Virus record (IMG/VR): IMGVR_UViG_3300037963_005232
Location: 1-33,413 of that record
Length of the DNA: 33,413 nt
Strand: one strand, 5' to 3'
Origin: a virus
The translations under genes were made by a program, and so were the position numbers. Below the pieces are notes generated by a model. It made no database searches, was not told the origin of the DNA, and saw only the letters and a list, made by a program, of their open reading frames with translations. Shown here piece by piece: positions 9,789 through 22,079 of this stretch. Numbering within the stretch: the stretch's first letter is position 1; every line of letters begins with the position of its first letter.

Positions 9789-11321
9789 ATGGCAGGAAGC
9801 TCGATCTCTCAGGCAAAGTTGCGGTCTGCCAAGAACGCAGCAAAGGCCATTGTCAAGAAACAGGTAGAAGTCGAGCTGCCTGAATATGTCACCAAGGCGC
9901 GAAAGAACTTCGGCTACTTCTGTGAGCTGATGGGCAAGAAGCCAGCCCGTCATATGCGCGAGTGGCACAAGGTCTTTCTGACTGGTCAAAGCAATGACCA
10001 TCTGCTGGATATTGCTGGGCCAAACACTTGCCTGCTCAGTCCGCGAGGCTCAGCCAAATCCACCGTACTGGGATTACTGCTTGGCTGGCTGATTGGTAGG
10101 CATGCTCTCGAAAAGAAGCTGCTTCGGATTCTCTATGTTTCATACAACGTCGACGTCGCTCGGAACAAAAGCGCAGCGATCAAGAACCTGATCTGCTCCA
10201 AGGAGTATCAGGAGATTTTTCCCTGTGTGCGCCTTTCCAAGATGCGTACCTCGGACGAACTGTGGAGCATTGACTGGGACTTTGCTGAAGTCGATGTCCG
10301 AGGCGAGGACGCATTCACCGTGGCCTGCGCTGGCCTGAAAGGAACGATCACCTCGAAGCGATCCAGTTTGATCGTGGTGGATGACGCCATCAAGAGTGCA
10401 GCAAGCATTGCCAACCCGGATATCCGCCGGGAGATGGAGACGAACTGGACGAACGTCATCGTGCCAACCATGTTCCAGGGAGCTCGCGCCATTGCGCTGG
10501 GAACTCGGTTTCACTTCGACGATCTGTTCGCAACGATCTTCACCGAGAAGAAGGGTTGGAAGTGCATTACTCAGTCAGCGCTGCACTACGACGATGACGG
10601 CAGGCCCAAGTCTTATTGGCCTGACATGTGGTCAGCGAAATACCTGCTGAAACTCCAGGCAGATGATCGCGTGGCATTCAGCTACCAGTACCTGAACCAA
10701 CCAGTCAGGTCAAAAGAGTTGGGCATCTCGCCAGAGCTGTTTGTCAAAGGTGAGGTGCCAGATGTGTATGACACGGTCGGAGTGGGCATTGATCTGTCAG
10801 CTGGAATGACAGAGCGCAATGACTGGACCGTTTTCACCCTGGCTGGGCGGGTTGACGACAAGGTTTATGTCATCGACTACCGGCGCATGCGCTCGATGGG
10901 AAACATCGACAAGATCGAGGCGCTTTGCGAGTTACTGGTCGAATGGAACCTGCTTGAGGTCAATGACGAGGGGCATTACTTCAAGTCGATGTCACCGGTC
11001 GTCATTTGGCCAGAAGTCGTCGCCTATCAGAAAAGCTTTGAGGGCGACATGAAGCGGATCCTCTTCAATGAATGGCAGCTCTACAACCTCTCCATTAGCC
11101 CTGTAAAGGGTTTCCGTGGCGACAAGCTGGCTAGGTTGAGAGGAATTATGGGGCTCTTTGAGCACAAGAAAATTATTTTCAATAAATACCGTGATTTTAG
11201 TTGCATGGTCGATGAGATCGTCAACTTCGGACACTCGCCTCACGATGACTGTGCCGACTCATTGAATATCGTGGTACAAGGCCTTATGCGTCGTGGAAGT
11301 CCTCAGATTGAGTGGAACTAA
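9789..11321 (+). CDS. terL: Terminase large subunit (DNA-packaging ATPase/nuclease, 510 aa)
   Basis: This motor pumps viral DNA into the procapsid through the portal and cuts the concatemer. The N-terminal ATPase has a Walker A loop SPRGSAKST (84-92), a Walker B strand ending in two aspartates (LIVVDDA, D198/D199) and a coupling motif ALGTRFH (236-242). The C-terminal RNase H-like nuclease shows D335 in GVGIDLSAG, a second acidic site near D345, and the terminal acidic cluster HSPHDDCAD (482-490), the three acidic positions expected in the family. Length is normal for TerL. It lies directly before the portal gene with nine bases between them. Confidence in function is very high. Confidence 0.96.
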   Translation: MAGSSISQAKLRSAKNAAKAIVKKQVEVELPEYVTKARKNFGYFCELMGKKPARHMREWHKVFLTGQSNDHLLDIAGPNTCLLSPRGSAKSTVLGLLLGWLIGRHALEKKLLRILYVSYNVDVARNKSAAIKNLICSKEYQEIFPCVRLSKMRTSDELWSIDWDFAEVDVRGEDAFTVACAGLKGTITSKRSSLIVVDDAIKSAASIANPDIRREMETNWTNVIVPTMFQGARAIALGTRFHFDDLFATIFTEKKGWKCITQSALHYDDDGRPKSYWPDMWSAKYLLKLQADDRVAFSYQYLNQPVRSKELGISPELFVKGEVPDVYDTVGVGIDLSAGMTERNDWTVFTLAGRVDDKVYVIDYRRMRSMGNIDKIEALCELLVEWNLLEVNDEGHYFKSMSPVVIWPEVVAYQKSFEGDMKRILFNEWQLYNLSISPVKGFRGDKLARLRGIMGLFEHKKIIFNKYRDFSCMVDEIVNFGHSPHDDCADSLNIVVQGLMRRGSPQIEWN

Positions 11322-11330: not shown

Positions 11331-13553
11331 ATGAGCCAGTCAACTCAAGACCGTTTCCGTCGCATTCTCGAAGCAGCTCGCAAGCGAGATGGCGGTGCAA
11401 ATACCGACACGATGATCGTGAACAGTCATCTGTCGCAGATGAAATTGTTCATGTTGCGCCAGGGATTGGAGTTTTATCCAGGGCAGGATACATTCGGATT
11501 CCGAAAACAATTCCTCACTCAAGTCATTGAGGAGAACGAAATTGACACCCGTCTTGAGGGAATCGTTGATGATTTTCTGATTGACGGGAAAGGGCTCTTT
11601 TACTTCAGGCCTGTCCGGGATACATACCGGATCATGTGGTTCAGCGCAGATAACTATCGCGCGTTCTATGACTCAATCGGAGAACTGGAAGAGATTGAGC
11701 TGATCTACTCTTTCTCTGTCAGGCAGAACTCTGCCGCACCAGTTGGGCCAAGCGAGGGCGAAGGCTCACTGCGTTACGTCAAGCTGCGTGTGCGCAAGGA
11801 CGAGATCAAGGAAACGATCACCAGCGAAAAGCCATCGTTCGACCAGAGCGCGCCAACGATGGCGTTCGCAGTCAACAAGACCAGAACGCTGACGAACAGC
11901 CTGGGGTTCATCCCTGCTGTTGAGTGCTTCAACAACATGCGTTCCACCGGTATGGACGCAACCGGCGAGTTCAACTGGCTGGCAGAGCAGATCGTGACCC
12001 ATGACGATCTGGTCAAAAACATCCGCACCAATATTCACTTTTTCGGCAACCCGACTCTGCTGTCCAGTCGACCGAAGCACGACCTGGTCGAAACCGGTGA
12101 TGACGGCGACAGCATGCGCCCCACGATCAGCTCTCAAGCTGGTTTCTATGCGGCGAATCGTCCGTCGACTCGTGTCAGTTCACCGCTAGGAGGCTCGGGC
12201 AGCGGCGGATTCAAAGTGCCGCGAATCATCGCCAATATCGAGGCAACTGACCGTGCTGCGTACATCACGCCTGACGCAGTCTCTGGCGACCAAAACCTGT
12301 ACGCGAGGCAGTATCGAGAAGAGATCCGCACGGCACTTGGCGGCGTTGACGAGCTGGGCATCACCGCAGGCGCTACCGCCTACGAGATCAAGAGCTTGTA
12401 CGGGAGAGCTGCAACGACTGCATCAAGACGTTGCAGAGGCTTGTTGACCTATGGCCTGTGCAAATTATTTGCACTGATTATTTATAACGAAGAAAAGATC
12501 TTCAAAGAATCATTTGCAGCTGCAATTGGCCTGGATAGGCCTATGGCTCCAATGCGGGAAGACTTCCCAGTTTCTGCGGATTACGGAGCAGCAGCAGCTG
12601 AATTTGATCAGATTATGAAAGAGTACGAGGGAACTCTTTCTCAAGAGATCGGCCAAGCAGTGCAAAGTCGACAGCTTCCACCTGGAACTGTCGGACTTAT
12701 ACCCGATGGAGACAGAAGAGTTGAGTGGAGATGGAAAGGTCCCGTCTTCGAGGATGGTACAGAGGATATACTTAATTCAAGTATTGTCGTTCGTAACCTC
12801 CAAGAGCTCGGCGTTAATTCGATCGAAGCTCTGCGTTACCTCTTCCCAGATAAAACTGATGAAGAAAGAAGCGCAATGCTCAGTGGCTATCCATTCCGAA
12901 TGGCCCAAGCCACCCAGCAAAGTATTGGGACATTCCTGACGCTCGTCGAAAACATGCGTCAGATCCCGCATCCGCAAGCACCCGACTTACCGATGCTCGC
13001 GGATCCAAAACTGGATCTCACTCCGTACATTTATCGCGCGCTTGATTTCCTTAAGCGTGAGCTGACTTATGCAGGACAGTACAACGATGTCACAGGCGGC
13101 GGCGATCCCGCAGGCCTCGATCCCATCGAGCGCGCCCGCGCCGACGCAGGCTTACCAATCAGCGCCGGCCCAGAGCGCCCCAGCTTCGTACCAGACAGCT
13201 TCGGTGCCGCAGCAGGTGGACCCGACGCCTTACCAGCAGGCACCGGCGGCACCCCAGGCCAACCCATGGCAGCAGGCGTTCGAGCGTCTCAGCGACAGCT
13301 TGAGCGCGACGCGGAACTCCCAACCGCAGGCAGCCTACTCAACGCCGACCCCACAGGCAGCCCCTCCGCAGGCATGGCAGGGTTCGGCTCCGGCGCAGTA
13401 CCAGGCAGCGCCTTCAACTTCGGGGCTGCAGACCTCAATTCCCCAAGCAACGCAGGCGTTCTCCCCACAGACACAGGCGCCCAGCTACAGCAACGAGCAG
13501 ATCGCACCCGCGAGCGACGAGTATCTCGCCAGCGTAAGCAACGAAAGTCTTGA
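11331..13553 (+). CDS. Portal (head-tail connector) protein with a long C-terminal extension (740 aa)
   Basis: The portal forms the ring at one capsid vertex through which DNA passes, and docks the terminase. Identification rests on size, position straight after terL and before the scaffold, and an overall layout fitting phage portals: an alpha/beta wing region (about 60-330), a Gln/Arg-rich long helix region (about 335-400) and a C-terminal crown. The folded part appears to end near residue 580. The last 161 residues are Gly/Ala/Pro-rich low complexity ending in a very basic tail (TRERRVSRQRKQRKS), and they are encoded in the same DNA as the scaffold N-terminus in another frame. The function is well supported by context; the extension is unusual. 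Confidence 0.88.
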   Translation: MSQSTQDRFRRILEAARKRDGGANTDTMIVNSHLSQMKLFMLRQGLEFYPGQDTFGFRKQFLTQVIEENEIDTRLEGIVDDFLIDGKGLFYFRPVRDTYRIMWFSADNYRAFYDSIGELEEIELIYSFSVRQNSAAPVGPSEGEGSLRYVKLRVRKDEIKETITSEKPSFDQSAPTMAFAVNKTRTLTNSLGFIPAVECFNNMRSTGMDATGEFNWLAEQIVTHDDLVKNIRTNIHFFGNPTLLSSRPKHDLVETGDDGDSMRPTISSQAGFYAANRPSTRVSSPLGGSGSGGFKVPRIIANIEATDRAAYITPDAVSGDQNLYARQYREEIRTALGGVDELGITAGATAYEIKSLYGRAATTASRRCRGLLTYGLCKLFALIIYNEEKIFKESFAAAIGLDRPMAPMREDFPVSADYGAAAAEFDQIMKEYEGTLSQEIGQAVQSRQLPPGTVGLIPDGDRRVEWRWKGPVFEDGTEDILNSSIVVRNLQELGVNSIEALRYLFPDKTDEERSAMLSGYPFRMAQATQQSIGTFLTLVENMRQIPHPQAPDLPMLADPKLDLTPYIYRALDFLKRELTYAGQYNDVTGGGDPAGLDPIERARADAGLPISAGPERPSFVPDSFGAAAGGPDALPAGTGGTPGQPMAAGVRASQRQLERDAELPTAGSLLNADPTGSPSAGMAGFGSGAVPGSAFNFGAADLNSPSNAGVLPTDTGAQLQQRADRTRERRVSRQRKQRKS

Positions 13554-14067
13554 AGTTCTTGAGCACTTCGGTGCTGAAGCCCCGGCTCTCCTTAATCGCT
13601 ACTCCTGTGTAGTCGAAGATGCTCTGTTGGCTCAGGCTCAGCAGACCGCTGAGACCATGCAAAAACTCGAAGAGCTTGGAGTTTCCCTCGATTCTGCAAA
13701 AGCAGTGATCGAGGCTGCAGCAGAGGACAACGCTGCGTACCACGTCATGCTGACCAACCCTGACATGTTGGCTGCATACGTGAACGACTTCTTCGGTCCT
13801 GAAGGTCCTTACCCCCAGGAGACTCCCGAAGATCGCCTCGCTGCAGAAGTTGCCGCTAGCACTCAGCAGTTCCAGGCACCGGCTCCCGCCTATCAGCGTC
13901 CAGAGATCGACATGCCCCAGCCTGGTGTGCAAGCACCACAGGGTGGCGACGACTTCTGGTCCACCTTCTCCGCGATGAGCGATCGGAATCCATCCGCCGC
14001 TTGGCAGATGTTGGCCCAGGCAGGCCCCGACGCACTGCGCAGCAAGATCCTGGTTTCTGAGGGGTGA
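13069..14067 (+). CDS. Capsid scaffolding protein (332 aa)
   Basis: Scaffolding proteins guide capsid shell assembly and then leave. The first about 155 residues are a Pro/Gln/Ala-rich disordered arm. The conserved-looking core (about 155-275) is acidic and helical, starting NESLEVLEHFGAEAPALL and containing VVEDALLAQ and FFGPEGPYPQETPEDRLAAEV, a pattern I associate with cyanophage and pelagiphage scaffold proteins. The helical C-terminus may bind capsid protein. The first 161 codons overlap the portal gene out of frame. The start is ATG 13069 or ATG 13087; the latter has AGGA ten bases upstream. It is followed two bases later by the Hli gene. Confidence 0.85.
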   Translation: MQDSTTMSQAAAIPQASIPSSAPAPTQAYQSAPAQSAPASYQTASVPQQVDPTPYQQAPAAPQANPWQQAFERLSDSLSATRNSQPQAAYSTPTPQAAPPQAWQGSAPAQYQAAPSTSGLQTSIPQATQAFSPQTQAPSYSNEQIAPASDEYLASVSNESLEVLEHFGAEAPALLNRYSCVVEDALLAQAQQTAETMQKLEELGVSLDSAKAVIEAAAEDNAAYHVMLTNPDMLAAYVNDFFGPEGPYPQETPEDRLAAEVAASTQQFQAPAPAYQRPEIDMPQPGVQAPQGGDDFWSTFSAMSDRNPSAAWQMLAQAGPDALRSKILVSEG

Positions 14068-14069
14068 TC

Positions 14070-14189
14070 ATGTCTGACTTCATGACTAAAGCAGCTGAAC
14101 TGCTGAACGGTCGCGTCGCAATGCTCGGCGTCATCGCAGCACTCGGTGCGTATGCAGTCACTGGCCAGATCATCCCTGGCATCTGGTAA
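14070..14189 (+). CDS. hli: High-light-inducible (Hli) protein, photosynthesis auxiliary gene (39 aa)
   Basis: The protein is one transmembrane helix with the LHC-superfamily chlorophyll-binding motif: E10, N13, G14, R15, A17, M18 and G20 in ELLNGRVAMLG. It ends GQIIPGIW as in many cyanobacterial and cyanophage Hlips. Hlips bind chlorophyll in thylakoid membranes and protect photosystem II; phage copies are thought to help keep photosynthesis running during infection. The Shine-Dalgarno (GAGGGG, six bases before ATG) is among the strongest here, implying high translation. The gene follows the scaffold stop by two bases and is closed by a terminator, so it appears to be co-transcribed with capsid-assembly genes. 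It is too short for most gene finders but the motif is unmistakable. Confidence 0.95.
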   Translation: MSDFMTKAAELLNGRVAMLGVIAALGAYAVTGQIIPGIW

Positions 14190-14212
14190 TCGCTCGTAAC
14201 TCAACTGTTTAT

Positions 14213-14591: not shown

Positions 14592-14858
14592 GTGCGGCTT
14601 GCTGGCAGCGACGAAGTATTTGATCAGCTGTCAGCATCAGCACAGAATACTGATGTTCAACACGTAGAGAACGTGATTGAGCAGATAGAGATTTTGCGTG
14701 CCAGGGGCATGGGTGATCAAGCTGCTATTCAGCATGGCTTGAACATTTGGGCTGGCAACGAAGAAGAGGTATCAGCCAATCCGCGATTTGCAGCTATTTA
14801 TGGTGACGTACCAATTAGCCCTCCAGGCAACAATAGCCCTGGCGATACCTCTGATTGA
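14592..14858 (+). CDS. Small acidic protein of unknown function overlapping the endolysin start (88 aa)
   Basis: A GTG-started frame encoding an acidic, mostly helical protein (about residues 8-50) with a Pro/Gly/Ser-rich C-terminus. No family is recognised. The last 71 bases overlap the endolysin frame. The start is weakly supported: no clear Shine-Dalgarno precedes GTG 14592. Coding is favoured by balanced amino-acid composition and by filling an otherwise empty gap between two genes. There is no membrane segment, so it is not an obvious holin. Confidence 0.5.
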   Translation: MRLAGSDEVFDQLSASAQNTDVQHVENVIEQIEILRARGMGDQAAIQHGLNIWAGNEEEVSANPRFAAIYGDVPISPPGNNSPGDTSD

Positions 14859-15984
14859 GGGGTTTGAGGGTGTAGAGACTAATGCTTATGTAGATAACGT
14901 CGGGGTGCCCACTATTTGCGCCGGGATGACGAAATACCCGGACGGGAGCCCTGTGCGGATAGGGGATAAATGCAGTCGCCCTGTGTGCAGGGCATACCTG
15001 CAGACAATGATCGAAGAAATTTATATTCCGAAGCTCATGAACATCCCTGGCTGGGAGCGTCTGGGCAAATGCAGGAGAGCGGCACTGGTTTCCTTTGCTT
15101 GGAACCTTGGCCCTAATTTTTATGGAAGAGACGGCTTCGAGTCGATCTCAGAAGTTCTTCGAGCTGGGGCTAAAAATCCCGAGGAGTATAGGAGAATGCC
15201 CGAAGCACTCAGTCTGTACACCAAGGCAAAAGGTGTAGAACTTGAGGGTCTAAAAATTCGTCGCGCCGAAGAGGGGCGCGTGTGGTCTAGGGAAGATGAC
15301 GGAGAAATGATTTTCAGCTGTAGCATCGCTACCTTCTTGCAGAAAGCACCGATTAGCAGTCGATACCTTTCGAGCGAAGGTCGTCAAGGAATTGAACCTG
15401 GGGAGACAATTGAAGTCGTTGCAGCCGACTCTCTCCCGGCAAGCCCCTATCAATGGATAACGATCAAAGGCTCGGGCGAACGGTGGACTGTCTATCAGCC
15501 TCACTGGCTCGTCAAGGCGGAAGGAGAAGAAATCGAACCAGTAGAAGGCGAGCCAATTGATTGGTCCAATTTCAATCAACGAATCAGCAAGTATTTGACC
15601 GTTGGCGAAGTACTTCAGTGGGACTCACGCAGAAGGCCTAACAACGGATCAAAAGAAGAAGAGGAGATCATCTCCCTAGCTAAACAGTTCGACCTCATCA
15701 GAGAGGCGTGGGGCGGCCCCATAGGAGTTACCAGTGGTTACAGGCCTGATGCAGTCAACAGAGAAGTAGGGGGAGCGGCTGCCTCTTATCACATTCGCGG
15801 CATGGCTCTGGATATCTATCCAGTTGGCGAGAGCTGCTCGACATTTCACAAATGGCTTAGCAGGCGTTGGACAGGGGGTCTTGGCGACGGCTGCCACCAG
15901 GGTTTCGTGCACATCGATACCAGAGACGAAGGTCGTTTTTCGCCGAGGGCAGATGGACGACCTTGCTGCATATGGTCCTACTGA
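14788..15984 (+). CDS. Two-enzyme endolysin: GH24 lysozyme plus M15-type peptidase (398 aa)
   Basis: It degrades host peptidoglycan at lysis. The N-terminal domain (about 15-170) is a GH24 muramidase: E27 in GFEG, D36 in YVD and T42 in PTICAG have exactly the 9- and 15-residue spacing of the T4 lysozyme E11-D20-T26 triad, and LEGLKIRRAEEGRVW (152-166) matches the family's closing motif. A linker region (about 178-245) looks like a small beta barrel, perhaps SH3-like wall binding. The C-terminal domain (about 260-398) is an M15-type zinc peptidase with H335 and D342 in SYHIRGMALDI and H375 in FVHID. There is no clear signal peptide, so a holin is presumably needed. The start is ATG 14788 or 14800. 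Confidence 0.92.
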   Translation: MQLFMVTYQLALQATIALAIPLIEGFEGVETNAYVDNVGVPTICAGMTKYPDGSPVRIGDKCSRPVCRAYLQTMIEEIYIPKLMNIPGWERLGKCRRAALVSFAWNLGPNFYGRDGFESISEVLRAGAKNPEEYRRMPEALSLYTKAKGVELEGLKIRRAEEGRVWSREDDGEMIFSCSIATFLQKAPISSRYLSSEGRQGIEPGETIEVVAADSLPASPYQWITIKGSGERWTVYQPHWLVKAEGEEIEPVEGEPIDWSNFNQRISKYLTVGEVLQWDSRRRPNNGSKEEEEIISLAKQFDLIREAWGGPIGVTSGYRPDAVNREVGGAAASYHIRGMALDIYPVGESCSTFHKWLSRRWTGGLGDGCHQGFVHIDTRDEGRFSPRADGRPCCIWSY

Positions 15985-20253: not shown

Positions 20254-20947
20254 CAGGTATATCTCCTGTAAATAAATGAAGACGACTCGGTGGCGCGTAC
20301 TCAATCAATGACTGCTGAATCTTGACTGCTTCTGGCGCGGTGAAATAGAGGCGAGGCTTGTGTCTGTACTCCTTAAGTTCAGCGCTTGCGCCAGTCAGCA
20401 TCGCAAGCCAGTTCTGGAGTCTTGAAGCTTCCGCCCAAGTGTTACCAACCCTGGTTAATTGGGCCTCCCTGCTCTTGGTATCAATGCGAGCCCCCTCGGC
20501 CCAGCACCAGGCCGCAGCCTTGGCACCAAGTAAATCCAAAGTGGGCTGAGTGATAGCCCTTTCCCCTGCTGGATAGAGCAGGTTATAAACGGCCCTCAGC
20601 TTGTTAGTTGACACTCGGAACCGAAGTACTGTTGTCCGCTTACCGTTCTCTCTCGCTGACCCCTTGTAGGGAGTGATTTGCGCTTTTGTCGGAAAGAATT
20701 GTCTGAACTCGTTGACTTTGTCCTCCAGAAAAGCAGATGACTTCACGCCTGCCGTGAGTGTCATTTGGATGTATCCACCTGCTGGACTGCGATATGGCAC
20801 AAGACTGCCATCCACTAAAAGCAAGCCCAGGAGCCCCCTGACGTCCGTTGCGTCCAAAAAGTGTTCCCTATGCGTTCTTCTTATATTAAGACGGAGCACA
20901 CAATCTGTGTGCTGTATAAACCCTTCAGCTGAGGAATCTCGATCCAT
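20147..20947 (-). CDS. LAGLIDADG-type homing endonuclease-like protein (266 aa from ATG 20947)
   Basis: Two LAGLIDADG-like helices are visible: RGLLGLLLVDGS (37-48, acidic D46) and AAAWCWAEGARI (144-155, acidic E151), each with an acid before Gly. Between them are the saddle strands and LLYPAGERAITQPTLDLLG, as in LAGLIDADG_2 enzymes. Such proteins cut one long DNA site and spread their gene by repair; no intron is evident, so this would be free-standing. The start is uncertain: ATG 20947 lacks a Shine-Dalgarno, while TTG 20857 has GGGA seven bases upstream and would begin six residues before motif one. The C-terminal 50 residues are low complexity and overlap the next gene. Confidence 0.78.
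   Translation of the reverse strand: MDRDSSAEGFIQHTDCVLRLNIRRTHREHFLDATDVRGLLGLLLVDGSLVPYRSPAGGYIQMTLTAGVKSSAFLEDKVNEFRQFFPTKAQITPYKGSARENGKRTTVLRFRVSTNKLRAVYNLLYPAGERAITQPTLDLLGAKAAAWCWAEGARIDTKSREAQLTRVGNTWAEASRLQNWLAMLTGASAELKEYRHKPRLYFTAPEAVKIQQSLIEYAPPSRLHLFTGDIPDVSDIRSARTELLLGGGQHQPAGKSKTPLAADRSA
20895..20920 (+). promoter_or_regulatory. Hairpin and TATAAA box upstream of the capsid gene
   Basis: AGCACACA (20895-20902) and TGTGTGCT (20906-20913) form a perfect 8-bp inverted repeat with a 3-base gap. TATAAA (20915-20920) follows, 25 bases before the capsid ATG. The TATAAA word resembles late-promoter cores of T4-type phages, and the inverted repeat could be an operator or mRNA 5-prime stem. 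No -35 box is evident. It lies in DNA that the opposite-strand gene may also use. Confidence 0.45.
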
Positions 20948-22079
20948 GTGGATTGATAATGATTTTCCCAAGCTGCTAGGTGCCGAACTCTATCGGCCCC
21001 ATCCCGGTTACATCATCGAGATGGCGGTAGAGCCCGTGGTTGTTCACGATTTCGCTAAGCAACCCGGTCAAACTGTTCAGCTCGATCGCTACCGCTTCTG
21101 GGGCAATCCTGGTAATAAGGATTCCCGAGAGCGCACAGCTGATCAAACACTGGGCACTGCATCTAGCCGCTCTATTGTTAAAGATAAGGTTCTGGTGAAC
21201 CTTAAGGAGTACACGGGTCCTGCGGATCCGGCCGACGCTACTTCGCCCAGCACCTTCAAGGTTGCGCGCGAAACTCTGCTGACCGCTCAGCGTTTGCTGC
21301 TTGATACCGGCAACCTGAATGTCTTCCACCAAAGCATTGGTTCTCTGACCCTGCTGGATGACTACCGCCGCTGGCGTGACCGCGTCTTCGCTGACGAGCT
21401 GTTCAAGGCTGAAGCGAATGGCGAAGCCTCTGATTCTCAGGGTGGCTACTACTACCCGCTCAGCAAGGCAAAGGCAGCGTCTGCACCCTTCCTGACTTAC
21501 TCTGCTACTGAGTCAGCGAAGTTTGACGTCAAGACCGACCTGCTTCAGGTGGTCAAGGACATGCGCAAGCGCAATGTCCCGACATTCGCCGATGGTTATT
21601 ACCGTTGCATCGCAGATCCCACTGCAATGATGCACTTGAGGCAAAACGATGCCTTTAGAGAAATCGCGCGATATGCCGGCAACGGTATGGTCAACCCCCT
21701 GCAACCTGAGCAGGCTCCCAACGCCAACTTCTTCTATGGCATGGGTCCCGCTTACGGACAAGCAGGTTTCGTAGCTGGTCAGCCTGTAATGCCAACGGGA
21801 TTCCTATTTGAGGGAGTTCGTTGGTTTGAGTCCACCAACCTGGCTGAGAAGAGCCTTGAAGTTTCGATTAACAGCAGTCAGCAGGTTTACACCGCTGCAC
21901 CCATGCTGTTCTTCGGCCCTCAGGCAGTCGGCGTAGGCATCGGCGGAAACAATGCCCAGATCCTGCTTAACAATAATGACGACTTTAGTCGCTTCATTAT
22001 TATGATCTGGTCTCTCTTTGCTGGTTTTGAAGTGCTTAATCGCGACTTCATTACCGTTGCTTACTCATTCGTATTCTGA
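20946..22079 (+). CDS. Major capsid protein (377 aa)
   Basis: This is the best candidate for the shell subunit. Length suits an HK97-fold capsid protein, and it stands directly before a decoration-like gene. The words LYRPHPGY, DRYRFWGNPG, GTASSRSIVKDKVLVNLKEY, DDYRRWRDRVF and the C-terminal GFEVLNRDFITVAYSFVF have the look of capsid proteins of marine podovirus-like phages as I recall them; family assignment is by resemblance and context. ATG 20946 is preferred because GAGGAAT lies about 11 bases upstream; an upstream extension in frame would run through the promoter region and a minus-strand gene. No cleavage or protease gene is seen nearby. Confidence 0.87.
   Translation: MWIDNDFPKLLGAELYRPHPGYIIEMAVEPVVVHDFAKQPGQTVQLDRYRFWGNPGNKDSRERTADQTLGTASSRSIVKDKVLVNLKEYTGPADPADATSPSTFKVARETLLTAQRLLLDTGNLNVFHQSIGSLTLLDDYRRWRDRVFADELFKAEANGEASDSQGGYYYPLSKAKAASAPFLTYSATESAKFDVKTDLLQVVKDMRKRNVPTFADGYYRCIADPTAMMHLRQNDAFREIARYAGNGMVNPLQPEQAPNANFFYGMGPAYGQAGFVAGQPVMPTGFLFEGVRWFESTNLAEKSLEVSINSSQQVYTAAPMLFFGPQAVGVGIGGNNAQILLNNNDDFSRFIIMIWSLFAGFEVLNRDFITVAYSFVF

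Follow-up and report, generated by a model that had tools for sequence, protein, structure and literature searches.

The question raised by this locus is whether the end of one phage gene can also be the beginning of the next in a different reading frame, with both products made. The locus lies in a 33.4-kb virus record (the window, meaning the whole stretch of 33,413 nt that was analysed), which is a fragment of an S-EIV1-like cyanophage. The reading developed here is that one stretch of mRNA is very probably translated in two frames, yielding the C-terminal tail of a portal protein and, from an internal start, the N-terminal half of a scaffold protein, a reading drawn from comparison of related genomes. 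The genes concerned are as follows.

9789-11321, + strand: terminase large subunit (TerL; phrog_38, E 3e-72)
11331-13553, + strand: likely portal protein gene, 740 aa, ATG start (phrog_20475, 'virion structural protein'), downstream of TerL
13069-13553, + strand: dual-coding overlap, 485 nt, covering residues 580-740 of the portal and 1-161 of the scaffold; present in every intact relative and marked by phase-specific substitution and by dNN, dSN and dNS
13069-14067, + strand: probable scaffold protein gene, 332 aa, ATG start, in the +1 frame relative to the portal gene; relatives have the same-strand order portal-scaffold-MCP
20946-22079, + strand: major capsid protein (MCP), counted from the aligned Met; the ORF opens at 20673

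The first-pass annotation had described an out-of-frame overlap of 485 bases without a stop in either frame, low complexity in both shared tails, and conserved cores lying just outside the overlap. The two ORFs confirm the first of these statements and composition bears out the second: portal residues 580-740 are rich in A, G, P and R and end in a basic stretch (RERRVSRQRKQRKS), and scaffold residues 1-161 are rich in A, Q, S and P (pI 4.05). The third statement stands only in part, because the cores are there but conservation is not confined to them; both tails hold motifs conserved across clades (NPW..AF....L in the scaffold protein, G.SMA.G and P.PG in the portal protein).

The closest match to the TerL, portal and MCP of the window is Synechococcus phage S-EIV1, the only record in the phage collection that matches the window's portal or MCP, and the S-EIV1-like lineage is united by homologous TerL, portal, scaffold and MCP, the scaffold homolog being present in the S-EIV1 clade as well. 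A scan of viral contigs yielded 80 relatives. Among approximately 73 window-type contigs, the overlap is kept wherever the portal gene is complete and intact, and the +1 frame stays free of stops from some 470-550 nt ahead of the portal stop until about 510-600 nt past it, or as far as the contig reaches. A second scan yielded S-EIV1-type contigs, of which about 70 were analysed; all keep the overlap, with lengths of 554-641 nt, and in the isolate S-EIV1 (KJ410740) it is 554 nt. A third clade (L167-L170), found by a scan of genome contigs, has an overlap of 491-527 nt and a GTG scaffold start, with portals approximately 49-50% identical to that of the window; between the three clades, portals are 45-50% identical. 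The genome bins that contain the phage contigs L163-L171 carry the labels Euryarchaeota, Crocinitomicaceae, Rhodobacteraceae, Blastopirellula and others, probably through contamination during binning.

The assignment of functions to the two proteins depends on several indirect lines. Foldseek with the portal model returned T7-type portals as all nine top matches (E 0.06-0.32, from a low-confidence model), and the portal homolog of S-EIV1 has a weak match to the phrog_64 portal family (E 0.08). The scaffold candidate is an acidic protein (pI 4.05), disordered plus helical, and its gene sits between those of the portal and the MCP and on their strand (order TerL-portal-scaffold-MCP), as would be expected of a scaffold-type protein. 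PDB sequence profiles gave no match for either protein, and no family or solved-structure match was obtained for the scaffold candidate. The AlphaFold models have low confidence (mean pLDDT 55 and 43); that of the scaffold protein has a helical C-terminal half and only one other helix, at residues 66-79, and that of the portal protein is too poor to interpret. The names portal and scaffold, proposed in the first-pass annotation, are likely to be correct, with indirect support from weak homology, the order of the genes and physicochemical properties. Among the alternatives, the one with most remaining weight, albeit with a chance much smaller than that of a scaffold, is that the downstream protein is some other virion or assembly protein, as might be supposed from its lack of family or solved-structure matches and from the position of the window's MCP gene approximately 6.9 kb beyond it. 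However, in S-EIV1 the MCP gene (L002:9323-10474, 68% identical to that of the window) is two genes past the scaffold gene with one small gene between, the gene for this protein comes after the portal gene, on the same strand, in every relative, and the acidity and disordered-plus-helical character of the protein are typical of scaffolds.

The neighbourhood of these genes has features of its own. Directly 3' of the scaffold gene, within the head module, is a high-light-inducible (hli) gene of 39 aa (14070-14190), and an endolysin ORF at 14788-15984 combines a phage-lysozyme domain with a peptidase M15 domain. In some relatives the MCP gene is in two to five or more pieces: L184 and L186 (records of L041 and L068), in which Rfam finds group I introns, and L185 (record of L034), in which none is above threshold.

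If the downstream gene is translated, its ribosomes must enter the second frame either by initiating within the portal gene or by shifting from the portal frame. The following features bear on this choice.

13052-13061, + strand: weak purine-rich Shine-Dalgarno-like stretch, with a putative role in the window clade; a strong AAGGAG is at the same place in the S-EIV1 and GTG clades
13063-13065, + strand: scaffold-frame TGA, two codons ahead of the start, with a stop at the same position in 57/66 relatives
13069-13071, + strand: scaffold start codon, within portal codons TAT-GCA in 62/66 window-clade and 61/61 S-EIV1-clade sequences

The remaining four of the 66 window-clade sequences have TAC AGT, which creates a GTG start at the next position. 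In S-EIV1-type loci the series CAA AAG GAG ATG AGT/C TAT GCA is invariant (61/61), so that AAG GAG encodes Lys-Glu at the Shine-Dalgarno site in every one of them, versus usage elsewhere in this type of AAG for 33% of Lys and GAG for 32% of Glu; the third clade has AAGGAG ahead of its GTG start. The second frame has a dedicated initiation signal of its own, and the codon choices indicate that the scaffold start, together with a perfect Shine-Dalgarno sequence in the two other clades, is maintained by way of the portal's synonymous codons. Programmed +1 frameshifting from the portal frame would be compatible with the geometry, inasmuch as an out-of-frame overlap leaves room for a shift inside it. 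This mechanism is improbable: most window-clade relatives have a scaffold-frame TGA or other stop just before the start, the invariant AAGGAG with ATG or GTG in two other clades indicates internal initiation, and a shift inside the overlap would miss the conserved MQD N-terminus. The combination of the TGA with the conserved start and Shine-Dalgarno sequence makes internal initiation the best reading, and scaffold translation most likely begins in this way rather than by frameshift.

A further alternative is that only one of the frames is translated and the other is open incidentally, owing to low-complexity, stop-poor composition. An open +1 frame is weak evidence by itself, being only modestly unlikely by chance: given the portal codons, the mean probability of a single open +1 frame of such length is about 0.03-0.12 per sequence by codon permutation, and some relatives carry other long stop-free +1 runs. 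The comparison of substitutions is more informative. In 31 independent pairs of the window clade, mutations were split by their effects in both frames. Variability at portal codon positions 1, 2 and 3 is.090,.045 and.365 in the portal-only part and.324,.099 and.053 in the scaffold-only part, so the most variable position is the third codon position of the portal upstream of the overlap and that of the scaffold downstream; within the overlap, the values are low and flattened (.153,.070 and.127). Rates in the window-clade overlap are dNN.084, dSN.148, dNS.204 and dSS.74, and portal dS outside the overlap is.72; the near equality of the last two implies that mutation is not suppressed in the overlap. 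The ratios are.57 (.51-.63) for portal dNN/dSN and.41 (.37-.46) for scaffold dNN/dNS in the window clade, compared to.69 (.60-.78) and.30 (.27-.34) in 30 pairs of the S-EIV1 clade, for which dSN/dSS is.14 and dNS/dSS is.32. Across both clades, dSN and dNS are 0.14-0.32 of dSS in the overlap, the dSS estimates deriving from small numbers of sites (88 and 130). Of 112 gaps in the overlap, 96 are multiples of three. The position-specific comparison of relatives proposed in the first-pass annotation thus came out, in the two clades where it was run, with both frames constrained, and these rates indicate that there is purifying selection on both, changes affecting only the scaffold being purged more strongly than those affecting only the portal. 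With dSN and dNS both several-fold below dSS, a start codon and Shine-Dalgarno sequence kept through synonymous codons, and motifs conserved across clades in both frames, an incidentally open frame is very improbable. The functional overlap of two head-assembly genes that had been suggested is upheld by the selection tests in two clades, by conservation in the third, and by conservation of the start codon and Shine-Dalgarno sequence.

Spurious lengthening of the portal by an indel from sequencing or assembly, considered at the outset as an alternative, has next to no chance of being the explanation and is already refuted by comparative data. The one sign that the GC-rich stretch is open to misassembly is the near-identical contig L022. 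An error could not arise repeatedly in about 150 independent contigs as well as in the isolate genome of S-EIV1; these share the arrangement despite divergent sequence, and dNS/dSS of about.28-.32 indicates that the portal frame is itself selected. L022, the sole exception to conservation of the overlap, is otherwise nearly identical to the window but has a 56-nt deletion, aligning to 13091-13146, which disrupts both frames and has the appearance of either a misassembly or a defective variant; in no other relative does the portal frame terminate shortly after residue 580. By this convergence of independent contigs, the overlap is judged to be real and not a sequencing artefact.

The constraint at this locus extends upstream of the overlap, further into the portal gene.

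12739-13068, + strand: reduced synonymous change and conserved RNA structure, within the portal gene, 5' of the scaffold start
12841-12865, + strand: conserved RNA hairpin with one strongly compensatory pair, both sides of which are changed in 19/30 sequences
12936-12962, + strand: conserved 7-bp RNA hairpin with double changes at three pairs

Over the approximately 330 nt leading up to the scaffold start, synonymous change is down approximately 2-3 fold; this holds for both clades and for almost every pair. The folding energy of this region is below that of synonymous-codon permutations (mean z -3.0 for 26 representatives, versus -0.28 for a control region; about -1.9 in local 120-nt windows). 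RNAalifold with counting of pairs gave 97.4% of cells paired and 51 double changes, compared to 21.8 +/- 4.0 in shuffles, the double changes being concentrated in the two hairpins. Compensatory changes in the fold are few in the S-EIV1 clade; one common fold across all clades was not recovered, and an Rfam scan gave no credible match. Two other causes of the reduced synonymous change were rejected: a third hidden ORF, as no frame stays open there, and recombination, as nearly all pairs show the reduction and change that is synonymous in both frames is normal in the adjacent overlap. The pattern of substitution and folding points to a conserved RNA structure that is probably tied to scaffold expression.

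Under dual translation with an internal scaffold start, ribosomes on the portal cistron would read through to 13553 and other ribosomes would start at 13069 to make the scaffold protein, the disordered N-terminal half of which would be encoded over the disordered C-terminal tail of the portal. The upstream RNA structure may tune translation of the scaffold, for instance through a link to translation of the portal; one transcript could then supply each head with few copies of the portal and many of the scaffold. Both tails may be flexible interaction arms in procapsid assembly. A broader proposal, offered tentatively and with somewhat less than even expectation, is that the overlap and the structured region of about 330 nt form one coding-plus-regulatory module, in which a cis-acting RNA couples scaffold to portal translation and sets the stoichiometry of head assembly across the lineage.

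With respect to origin, the first-pass annotation had suggested overprinting of one tail on the other. Such an origin is plausible, but its direction is not given by these genomes: the overlap is already in all three clades, codon-usage scores do not separate the frames in one clade and lean slightly towards an older portal frame in the other, and no outgroup portal without the overlap was found among the relatives examined. The distribution of the overlap over the three clades places it before their split.

The same overlap is present in the reference genome of Synechococcus phage S-EIV1 (KJ410740), in which the GenBank scaffold is a 3' fragment only (AHV82225.1, L002 8327-8728 = KJ410740 59863-60264) that lacks the overlapped half. 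Likewise, of the S-EIV1 MCP (KJ410740 60859-62010) only the C-terminal part is annotated (AHV82228.1), with an opposite-strand ORF (AHV82227.1) annotated over the remainder. Gene callers suppress such overlaps, as this genome illustrates, and the comparison corrects the annotation of scaffold and MCP in an abundant cyanophage lineage. A literature search of incomplete coverage, which did not extend to the S-EIV1 paper, found no description of a portal-scaffold overlap, and there is hardly any record of long out-of-frame overlaps between head genes in tailed dsDNA phages; the hundreds of natural variants available here allow direct tests of dual-frame constraint, of origin by overprinting and of RNA control over the ratio of portal to scaffold.

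Viruses with long dual-coding overlaps are already known. In the Rz/Rz1 pair of lambda-like phages, which are small lysis proteins with one gene nested or nearly nested in the other, a tailed dsDNA phage likewise encodes two members of a single pathway in different frames of the same DNA, with an internal start, and one product is Pro-rich; here, the genes are two probable head-assembly genes that overlap end to start over 0.5-0.64 kb. The scaffold Nu3 of lambda is also made from an internal start within an upstream head gene, C, but it is read in the same frame as C and has its sequence in common with it, whereas portal and scaffold are unrelated proteins read in different frames. Microviridae such as phiX174 have long same-strand, out-of-frame dual coding in small ssDNA genomes, as opposed to dsDNA genomes of approximately 80 kb. 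Among annotated viral overlaps in general, 84% are under 50 nt and those in the +1 frame have a median length of 14 nt (interquartile range 8-26) (PMC7017920, PMC8903798); the portal-scaffold overlap is likewise same-strand and +1, but is 485-641 nt long and conserved in a large lineage.
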